Below, in pieces: positions 16,522 through 18,965 of a DNA stretch of 64,000 bases. The stretch covers positions 3,100,001 through 3,164,000 of the forward strand of contig NC_020520.1 in assembly GCF_000348785.1 (NCBI RefSeq), given 5' to 3'. How positions within the stretch are numbered: the stretch's first letter is position 1; each line of letters opens with the position of its first letter. The notes under the pieces were generated by a model. It had not been told where the DNA came from. It did not search any database and saw only the letters and a list, made by a program, of their open reading frames with translations. Source of the DNA: Ilumatobacter coccineus YM16-304. Lineage in GTDB: Bacteria; Actinomycetota; Acidimicrobiia; Acidimicrobiales; Ilumatobacteraceae. Made by a program: the position numbers and the translations under genes.

Positions 16522-17442
16522 TCAGCGCTCCGAGATCCACTCGAGGTGCGGCAGCTTCGCCGGGTTGAGCACCGAGCTCACCGTGCGCACCTTGTCGCCG
16601 ACGATGTCCAACGCGACGACGGCGTGCGGCGTCGCCGACCCGTCAGAGATGGCCACACCCGGCTCGCCGTTGACCTCGACCTCGACGATTCGGAGGCCGT
16701 CGCGTGCGAGCCGCGCCGCGAGCCCGACGAGCATCGCGGCGATCGCTCGCGGCGACGAGATGGGCTCGGCCCGCGTCGGCACGACTCCCCCACCGTCGCC
16801 GTACATCATCGCGTCGTCGCTGAGCATGCTCACGAGTGCGTCGACGTCGCCCGACTCGACGACGGCGAAGAATCGACCGGCCAGCTCCCATTTCGCTTCG
16901 GTGGTCGTCTCGAAGCGCGGACGGCGAGCGTGGATCGCCCGGCGGGCCCGACTCGCGATCTGCCGCGCGTTGACCTCCGATCGTCCGATCACTTCAGCGG
17001 CGTCGTGATAGCTGTACCCGAGGACGTCGTGCAGCAGGAACACCGCTCGTTCGGGCGGCGACAGCGATTCGAGCAGCACGAGAAACGCCATCGACAACGA
17101 GTCGGCGAGTTCGGCGCGCTCCTCCGGCCCGTCGCCGCGGTCGGCCACGAGCGGCTCGGGAAGCCACTGGCCCACGTACCGCTCGCGCCGCACCCGCGCC
17201 GACCGCAGGTAGTCGAGTGCGAGCCTCGTGACGATGGTCGTCGAGAACGCCTTGCGAGATCGGATGTCGTCGCCCGCCGCCTCCGAGGTGTGCAGTCGCA
17301 GCAGCGCTTCCTGCGCAAGATCTTCGGAGTCACCCGCGGATCCGGTCATTCGGTAGGCGATCGAGAAGAGCAACGGCCGAAGCGACTCTTCGGTTTCTTC
17401 CTCGACAGCGTGGTCGGGTCGGGCACTCGGAGTTCTGCTCAT
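16522..17442 (-). CDS. sigJ: ECF41-group RNA polymerase sigma factor (SigJ-like)
   Basis: 306 residues. Sigma regions 2 (residues 20-85, with AYRMTGSAGDSEDLAQEALLR) and 4 (about 115-170, with GYSYHDAAEVIGRS) are followed by a SnoaL-like C-terminal domain. The two ECF41 hallmarks are present: GDGGG around residue 217 and NPAKL near the C-terminus. In this group the C-terminal domain replaces a separate anti-sigma factor. An ECF41-type promoter lies directly upstream on its own strand (17452-17478), so autoregulation is likely. The facing target gene encodes an epimerase-like enzyme, a common ECF41 neighbour. Confidence 0.92.
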   Translation of the reverse strand: MSRTPSARPDHAVEEETEESLRPLLFSIAYRMTGSAGDSEDLAQEALLRLHTSEAAGDDIRSRKAFSTTIVTRLALDYLRSARVRRERYVGQWLPEPLVADRGDGPEERAELADSLSMAFLVLLESLSPPERAVFLLHDVLGYSYHDAAEVIGRSEVNARQIASRARRAIHARRPRFETTTEAKWELAGRFFAVVESGDVDALVSMLSDDAMMYGDGGGVVPTRAEPISSPRAIAAMLVGLAARLARDGLRIVEVEVNGEPGVAISDGSATPHAVVALDIVGDKVRTVSSVLNPAKLPHLEWISER

Positions 17443-17451
17443 GGCTCCTCA

Positions 17452-17478
17452 GACGATTGAGCTTGCTCGGACGTGACA
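17452..17478 (-). promoter_or_regulatory. ECF41-type promoter of sigJ
   Basis: Reading leftward: TGTCACG (17478-17472), a 16-nt spacer, then CGTC (17455-17452), ten bases before the sigJ ATG. This matches the TGTCACA-N16-CGTC promoter described for ECF41 sigma factors, with one change in the -35 box. It predicts autoregulation. Confidence 0.75.
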
Positions 17479-17484
17479 GCACGT

Positions 17485-17511
17485 TGTCACACCTCGGCGC
17501 CCCGATTCGTC
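17485..17511 (+). promoter_or_regulatory. ECF41-type promoter of the epimerase gene
   Basis: TGTCACA (17485-17491), a 16-nt spacer and CGTC (17508-17511) match the ECF41 consensus exactly as I know it. It drives the rightward epimerase gene 83 bp further on. Its -35 box lies back to back with the sigJ promoter's -35, six bases apart. Confidence 0.78.
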
Positions 17512-17593
17512 TCAGTTGGTGACAGCGGGCGCAGCGCCCCGACCGAACGGCCACGCAGCCCGCGGTCGTACCCAGTGAGAAAGCAGGAATGCA

Positions 17594-18529
17594 ATGAGAG
17601 TCTTCGTCGCCGGAGGAACCGGCGTGATCGGTTCACCCCTCGTCGAGCGTCTGGTGGCCGGTGGTCACGACGTGGCCGCATCGAGTCGCAGCCGGGGCGG
17701 CGCTCGCACGATCACCGAGCAGGGAGCGAACGGCGTCGTCCTCGACGCGCTCGACGCCGATGCGGTGCGCCGAGCGGTCGTCGAGTTCGGTCCCGACGTC
17801 GTGATGCATCAGTCGACCGCGATCGACTCGATCGATCCGAAGCGCCTCGACGAATGCTTCGCTGCCACCAACGCGCTTCGGACGACCGGCACCGACAACC
17901 TCGTCGCCGCGGCGCGCGCTGCCGGCGCACGTCGCGTCATCGCCCAGAGCTTCACCGGCTGGACCAACCAGCGAGGAGCCGCTCGGGCCCGGACCGAAGA
18001 CGAACCCTTCGATCGCGATCCCGACCCTGCCGCGTCCGAGAGCCTCGCTGCGATCGAGCATCTCGAACGCGTCGTGACCGGCACACCGAGCCTCGACGGC
18101 GTCGTCGTGAGGTACGGCAACCTGTACGGGCCACGGACGTCGTTCGATTCGGGCGGCGACAACCACCGCGCTGTCATCGAGCGACAGTTCCGCATCGTGG
18201 CGGGCGGCCGAGGGGTCTGGTCGTTCGTGCACGTCGACGACGCCGTCGAGGCGACCGTGCTGGCCATGACCGGACCGCCGGGCGTCTACAACGTCGTCGA
18301 TGACGAACCGGCCGCCGTACGCGAGTGGCTGCCCGACTACGCCGCCACCATCGGTGCCAAGCCGCCGCGAAAGGCACCCGGCTGGATCGCGAAACGGATG
18401 ATCGGCAGCCACGGGCTGCGGCTCATGACCGACATCAGCGGATCGTCGAACGAGCGGGCCAAGGCGCAGCTCGGCTGGAGTCTCGAGCATCCCACCTGGC
18501 GCGGCCACCTCGGCCCTCGCTCGGTCTGA
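17594..18529 (+). CDS. NAD-dependent epimerase/dehydratase family protein
   Basis: 311 residues with the extended-SDR Rossmann start VFVAGGTGVIGSPL (GxxGxxG) and VVVRYGNLYGPRT after the substrate region. The canonical YxxxK is not obvious: the middle segment reads AQSFTGWTNQRG, so it may be an atypical SDR of the kind often found beside ECF41 sigma factors. Substrate unknown. It lies divergent from sigJ under a perfect ECF41-type promoter, so it should be the main SigJ target. Translation starts at the ATG at 17594 after AAGCAGGAA. It is followed after 16 bp by a RidA gene that may share the transcript. Confidence 0.85.
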   Translation: MRVFVAGGTGVIGSPLVERLVAGGHDVAASSRSRGGARTITEQGANGVVLDALDADAVRRAVVEFGPDVVMHQSTAIDSIDPKRLDECFAATNALRTTGTDNLVAAARAAGARRVIAQSFTGWTNQRGAARARTEDEPFDRDPDPAASESLAAIEHLERVVTGTPSLDGVVVRYGNLYGPRTSFDSGGDNHRAVIERQFRIVAGGRGVWSFVHVDDAVEATVLAMTGPPGVYNVVDDEPAAVREWLPDYAATIGAKPPRKAPGWIAKRMIGSHGLRLMTDISGSSNERAKAQLGWSLEHPTWRGHLGPRSV

Positions 18530-18545
18530 GACGACGGGAGTCACC

Positions 18546-18965
18546 GTGCAGCGAACACGCCGACAGATCAGCCAGGGCAGCACCTTCGAGCGCGACATCG
18601 GCTACTCGCGAGCGATCGTCGCCGACCGCTGGGTCTTCATCAGCGGCACAACCGGTTTCGACTACAGGACGATGACGATCGCTCCCGGCATCGTCGAACA
18701 GGTCACGCAGACACTCGCCAATCTCGATGCAGCCCTCATCGACGCCGGCGGAACGGCGGCCGACGTGGTCCGCGTCAACTACCACCTGCCGGATCCTGAC
18801 GACTTCGAACCGTGCTGGCCATCGCTCCGGGAGTACTTCCACGAGTCGCGTCCCGCCGCCACCATGCTCGTCACCGGGCTGGCGGACCCGCGCATGAGGA
18901 TCGAGATCGAAGCGACCGCTCTGCTCCCCGACAGCGGCCCGAGCGATCAGCCGAAACCGTCGTAG
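18546..18965 (+). CDS. RidA/YjgF family protein
   Basis: 139 residues. The YjgF core is visible in GYSRAIVADRWVFISGTTG, ANLDAALIDAGGTAADVVRVNYHLPD and the closing RMRIEIEATALL, which holds the Arg and Glu that bind carboxylates in the family. RidA enzymes deaminate reactive enamine/imine intermediates; subgroup members have other roles. The start is GTG at 18546, just after the epimerase gene, suggesting an operon under SigJ. Its 3' end overlaps the converging SDR gene by 19 bp. Confidence 0.85.
   Translation: MQRTRRQISQGSTFERDIGYSRAIVADRWVFISGTTGFDYRTMTIAPGIVEQVTQTLANLDAALIDAGGTAADVVRVNYHLPDPDDFEPCWPSLREYFHESRPAATMLVTGLADPRMRIEIEATALLPDSGPSDQPKPS

Follow-up and report, generated by a model that had tools for sequence, protein, structure and literature searches.

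Genes and promoters at the sigJ locus

The window analyzed here, a stretch of 64,000 nucleotides from the genome of Ilumatobacter coccineus YM16-304, contains the sigma factor gene sigJ (positions 16522 to 17442, minus strand) and, divergent to it, the gene of an atypical extended-SDR enzyme (17594 to 18529, plus strand), separated by an intergenic region of 151 bases. A search of the 64-kb window for TGTCACR-N15..17-CGTC returned exactly two matches, running from 17478 to 17452 on the minus strand and from 17485 to 17511 on the plus strand. Ahead of sigJ, the -35 heptamer TGTCACG (17472 to 17478, minus strand) is followed after 16 bases by the -10 element CGTC (17452 to 17455), which lies 9 bases ahead of the sigJ ATG. 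The enzyme promoter consists of the -35 heptamer TGTCACA (17485 to 17491, plus strand) and, again 16 bases away, the -10 element CGTC (17508 to 17511), 82 bases ahead of the enzyme ATG. Both heptamers are exact matches to the search pattern and are kept in related divergent loci; that of sigJ carries a G at position 7, where the consensus has an A. They flank the 6-base sequence GCACGT (17479 to 17484) and form a perfect 6+6 dyad, GTGACA-N6-TGTCAC.

An earlier, sequence-only reading of this DNA had placed both motifs, and the 6 bases between the back-to-back -35 boxes, correctly to the base. It had called the promoters "facing"; there are indeed two, and their true orientation is divergent. 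Its assignment of both to the ECF41 class is supported by the motif match, by the uniqueness of the pair in the genome, and by its conservation in related divergent loci. In the stretch from the enzyme -10 element to the enzyme gene (17512 to 17593), a third GTGACA is visible at 17519 to 17524, without a CGTC at promoter spacing, and a short GC-rich inverted repeat that follows it was spotted by eye.

The 306-residue SigJ protein matches Pfam Sigma70_r2 (PF04542) and Sigma70_r4_2 (PF08281) above their cut-offs, and scores 300.9 bits against the NCBIfam SigJ model NF007214 (cut-off, 271). It aligns over residues 15 to 295 with the Mycobacterium tuberculosis SigJ structure 5xe7 (E value, 4e-45), a distant homologue matched through the C-terminal domain. 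The NF007214 score and an alignment reaching residue 295 reveal the large C-terminal extension; the matches to Pfam SnoaL_2 (24.8 bits) and TIGR02957 (308.4) are under the respective cut-offs of 27 bits and 323.25. The WLPEP linker between regions 2 and 4, an ECF41 trait (PMC3426412), appears in the translation as YVGQWLPEP. SigJ is the sole ECF41 factor of the genome, the next match having 34% identity over query residues 31 to 168 (36 bits). Its family matches, its single copy, and the conserved divergent loci support the proposed assignment of sigJ to ECF41. ECF41 genes are described as having no obvious anti-sigma gene beside them. Around sigJ, the proteins scanned are the enzyme, a RidA-family protein, an SDR, a protein resembling glycerol-3-phosphate dehydrogenase, and one of 200 residues that matches nothing in Pfam or NCBIfam.

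The divergent neighbor, a 311-residue protein previously read as an epimerase, matches Pfam Epimerase (PF01370) with 88.5 bits, so that sigJ adjoins a gene of the COE class, one of the marks of ECF41 loci. Its best NCBIfam match, to AvaA7 (NF058621; residues 1 to 307 of 311 aligned), reaches 271.2 bits, below the cut-off of 400, and the score does not qualify it as an AvaA7-type diazo reductase. At the aligned site, the window enzyme lacks YxxxK, the catalytic Tyr-Lys pair of classical extended SDR epimerases, and so do 11 of the 12 relatives aligned with it; the remaining one, the fragment L163, stops short of this site. "Epimerase" is to be taken as the name of a fold, and the nearest named family, below its cut-off, is that of the diazo-removing reductase AvaA7. 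AvaA7 and CmaA7 are described as NADPH-dependent diazo-removing reductases, with AvaA7 preferring NADPH (PMC10777205).

A gene for a RidA-family protein (18546 to 18965, plus strand; Pfam Ribonuc_L-PSP, 73.8 bits) begins with a GTG 16 bases past the enzyme stop. From this 16-base gap, it is plausible that ridA is the second gene of the enzyme transcript. No homologue of the window RidA turned up when the 120 dual-promoter loci listed (see below) were searched with it; three of the loci with relatives of both sigma factor and enzyme (L068, L107, and L117) have more than 2 kb of DNA 3' of the enzyme gene, and L160 does not.

Related divergent loci and the proposed circuit

A gene-blind DNA scan for the double motif, over one genome per species and with the left spacer fixed at 16, yielded at least 120 stretches. 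When the 120 listed were checked with a 77-sequence ECF41 profile, many of whose members were drawn from the same loci by similarity to the window SigJ, an ECF41 gene was found divergently adjacent in 94 of them; in 12 of the remaining 26, the motif lies within 900 bp of the locus end. Among the stretches listed, the double motif therefore predicts an ECF41 gene. The matches listed include Actinomycetota, Pseudomonadota, Acidobacteriota, and others.

The same divergent pair of sigma factor and enzyme genes occurs in two loci from Acidimicrobiia (L068 and L107), one from Thermoleophilaceae (L117), and one from Nitriliruptorales (L160). In these four, the sigma ATG lies 9 to 10 bases past CGTC (9 in the window) and the spacers are 16, with one of 17; the gaps between the two boxes are 12, 12, 6, and 5, respectively. 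Since the search pattern demands CGTC, its presence in related loci is not independent evidence; the independent evidence is the drift of the gap, the distance from -10 to ATG, and the flanking genes. On the enzyme side, the -10 element is 82 bases from the ATG in the window versus 28 to 37 in these four loci, a distance some 50 bases longer. In two further loci (L099 and L149), the sigma gene and a related enzyme gene are arranged in tandem instead of divergently.

A tree was built from 57 sigma factors (the window, counted once, together with 28 dual-promoter loci and 28 of the 29 family loci described below). In it, SigJ clusters with L160, L068, and L107 (support, 99/97), separately from a clade of 22 rows (99/93) formed by ECF41 factors of its own family. 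That family was sampled through 29 other ECF41 loci from 26 of 199 other genomes, with one further match left out. An exact TGTCACR-N16-CGTC lies upstream of the sigma gene in 23 of the 29; of the 6 loci without it, 3 offer less than 300 bases of sequence ahead of the sigma domain. The motif stands ahead of a tandem upstream gene in 20 of the 23 motif-bearing loci, and Pfam searches on 10 of these 20 genes gave eight Amino_oxidase matches, one DAO, and one Epimerase, that is, nine flavin oxidoreductase-like proteins and one epimerase, in agreement with the COE classes of Wecke et al. Thus, many ECF41 genes of the family (L030-L057) sit in tandem after another gene behind one ECF41 promoter, and the divergent pair of the window lies on a different branch of the sigma tree from these tandem loci.

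The divergent layout was already published in 2012, and the window locus is an ordinary, well-supported example of it. Wecke et al. gave the ECF41 consensus as TGTCACA-n16-CGTC with a spacer of 16 ± 1, and COE as a carboxymuconolactone decarboxylase, oxidoreductase, or epimerase (PMC3426412). In their Table 4, 55 of 373 ECF41 loci have the divergent <ECF< >COE> arrangement, and the motif precedes 36 of the ECF genes and 41 of the COE genes, "often both" (PMC3426412). As described there, such loci share with the window the gene order, the two-sided consensus, an epimerase-class COE, the WLPEP linker, and the C-terminal extension (PMC3426412). The layout of the window does not differ from theirs; its details are a gap of 6 bases between the boxes, a sigma start that follows very closely on the -10 element, and an adjoining ridA. 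The same TGTCACA-N16-CGTC motif forms the promoter of the rpoE9 operon of Sinorhizobium meliloti, in which SMb20029 and rpoE9 are cotranscribed, in contrast to the divergent pair of the window (PMC3616915).

We consider it very likely that the locus is a divergent ECF41 sigma factor/COE module in which active SigJ would drive sigJ, the enzyme gene, and perhaps ridA. In SigJ, a SnoaL-like regulatory domain fused to the protein would take the place of an anti-sigma factor; when active, SigJ would direct RNA polymerase to two near-identical promoters. Use of the sigJ promoter would amount to positive autoregulation, while the second promoter would serve the divergent NAD(P)H-dependent enzyme gene, perhaps together with ridA, from a transcript with a leader of about 70 to 75 bases. 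Both autoregulation and enzyme activation by SigJ are predictions made from sequence. Given the footprint of RNA polymerase, there would hardly be room for two of them on boxes separated by 6 bases, and polymerases on two promoters packed so closely would presumably exclude each other. According to PMC3426412 and PMC8999054, ECF41 factors are controlled through their fused C-terminal domain. The title of a paper cited in PMC8999054 names an Azospirillum ECF41 factor that controls motility; single ECF41 targets are therefore not universal.

Alternatively, SigJ could use the enzyme promoter only, with sigJ read from another promoter and the minus-strand motif weak or silent. The G at position 7 of the sigJ box would suit such an arrangement, as would the findings of Wecke et al., who could detect no ECF41 target other than the COE gene or operon in either of their two organisms (PMC3426412); the results given there for these two factors thus do not show autoregulation of a divergent pair. 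In the same survey, 19 of the 55 divergent ECF genes are without the motif and the other 36 have it (PMC3426412, Table 4). Against an idle sigJ promoter, the boxes, the spacers, and the 9-to-10-base distance to the sigma ATG persist in the four related loci despite the changed gap, and the genome has no other ECF41 gene that could explain the motif, which makes this alternative improbable.

A different view would treat the GTGACA-N6-TGTCAC dyad as the operator of an unrelated dimeric transcription factor, the CGTC elements being coincidental. The idea is suggested by the perfect 6+6 symmetry of a sequence that lies between divergent genes, and an inverted box with one mismatch does occur within 40 bases upstream of 4 of the 23 single ECF41 promoters of the family; an exact inverted box occurs within that distance in none of the 23. 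What decides is the half-site gap. Over the loci in which an ECF41 gene diverges from an enzyme relative, it is 4 in L108 and 17 in L171 (where the enzymes are more distant), 5 in L160, 6 in both the window and L117, 12 in L068, L107, and L189, and 16 in L190, a range that a rigid dimer would hardly tolerate. Conserved boxes and spacers with a drifting distance between the two boxes favor two promoters over one palindromic operator; we rejected the dyad as an operator on these grounds and give this view very little credence.

The host genome is a single contig of 4,830,181 bases. A genome-wide motif search, suggested in the sequence-only reading, gave 24 single matches, versus 10 for a reversed control pattern, and the back-to-back pair only once. 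That reading had also held the match to be hard to obtain by chance, which is true of the pair and not of single matches, as the 24 in the genome attest. Indeed, at least two single matches turned up in 24 of 100 shuffled 64-kb windows, whereas the pair appeared in none of 300 shuffles of the window and in none of 20,000 dinucleotide-shuffled versions of the 151-bp intergenic region, and a first-order Markov estimate derived from the window puts its expectation at about 0.013 per genome of this size. The pair was present in 6 of 396 genomes in a phylum draw (the host genome being one of the 6) and in 4 of 200 in an order draw, the two draws overlapping in some genomes; the reversed control pair stood at 0 in every match listed for either draw. 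A scan of 17 genomes of one family for the pair added no locus to those of the draws. No larger regulon emerged from the other 22 single motifs of the host genome, each of which lies under at least one mechanically called ORF of at least 150 codons, a weak criterion in GC-rich DNA because L020, one of two intergenic sites, also lies under such an ORF. Chance alone, for which the yield of single matches in shuffled windows might speak, has a negligible probability in view of the 20,000 intergenic shuffles without a pair and the recurrence of the pair in relatives, where it is flanked by these two genes again.

Leader lengths and box spacing

In S. meliloti, the ECF41 motif of the SMb20029-rpoE9 operon lies 9 nt upstream of a mapped transcription start (PMC3616915). 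Since 9 bases also separate CGTC from ATG at sigJ, the sigJ start would fall at or next to the ATG, and the sigJ transcript probably has no leader or almost none. Start codons 7 to 10 bases past CGTC are seen at several ECF41 promoters and suggest leaderless or near-leaderless mRNAs. With start codons chosen mechanically, the longest frame has its earliest start codon 7 to 9 bases past CGTC in 12 of the family's 20 upstream genes in tandem, and an in-frame sigma ATG or GTG lies 5 to 11 bases past the sigma-side CGTC in 24 of the 94 dual-promoter loci listed. By cluster, a short sigma leader is found in all members of 12, in some members of 3, and in no member of 25 of the 40 dual-promoter clusters. 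A leaderless sigma gene is therefore likely in the window and is not the rule. Among the papers listed by a literature search, none was recognizable by its title as a study of leaderless ECF41 transcripts.

The gap between the two boxes was compared over 103 ECF41-adjacent pairs (94 loci from the scan, 8 from the phylum and order draws, and the window), which form 45 clusters at 70% identity, each represented by its modal gap. With the scan-derived part consisting of the matches listed, 8, 16, 3, 16, and 2 clusters fall into the gap bins 0 to 8, 9 to 14, 15 to 19, 20 to 24, and 25 to 30. Gaps of 9 to 14 and of 20 to 24 predominate, and the gap of 6 in the window belongs to neither of these main classes. 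The 10 pairs from the draws other than the window have gaps of 11, 11, 12, 15, 16, 19, 24, 24, 24, and 30. The 15-to-19 trough is not seen among them, 3 of the 10 falling there, or 2 of the 8 with an adjacent ECF41 gene (the other two being L193, without an ECF41 gene, and L194, whose ECF41 gene is about 830 bases away; L195, one of the 8, shares its sigma sequence with L063). Since the trough is absent from these 10 pairs and the bins are post hoc, the gap classes remain a lead. A Rayleigh test on the 45 clusters gave a P value of 0.0024 at a period of 10.5 against a uniform-gap null, the period and bins having been chosen after the histogram was seen; with such a null and post hoc choices, we do not claim helical phasing of the boxes.

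The centers of the pairs also differ in composition. In wide pairs (gap, 20 to 24), the central 8 bases are 57% AT versus 35% for the locus, and 15 of 20 clusters have a center richer in AT than the locus; for pairs with gaps of 9 to 14, the figures are 17% versus 33%, and 5 of 18 clusters have such a center. The center of wide pairs is GAAATTT-like in several taxa and that of narrow pairs is GC-rich (L058-L177 and L187-L196). The AT-rich center of the wide pairs fits a shared upstream element. Among the papers listed by a literature search on box spacing, none was recognizable by title as a study of it in ECF41 promoters, and the observation on spacing and AT-rich centers may be new.

We raise as a speculation, with the balance of probability against it, that distinct geometries might wire the pairs differently: wide pairs (20 to 24) could share the AT-rich element, and close pairs could hold only one polymerase at a time, so that a leaderless sigma gene would compete with its enzyme gene for that polymerase.

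Implications for ECF41 circuits

If this speculation proved true, competition within a close pair such as that of the window (6 bases, GC-rich) would restrain self-amplification with no anti-sigma factor involved. Should the spacing classes hold, they would reveal how a sigma factor lacking such a partner can balance its own synthesis against its target. As for the enzyme, AvaA7/CmaA7 is the closest named family, albeit at 271 bits against a cut-off of 400, and the removal of a diazo group in that related family offers a first guess at its chemistry. Wecke et al. stated in 2012 that no inducing conditions were known to them for ECF41 factors (PMC3426412). With a single-copy ECF41 circuit and one evident target region in a 4.8-Mb genome, I. 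coccineus allows the sigma factor, the enzyme, and the signal to be investigated in one system.
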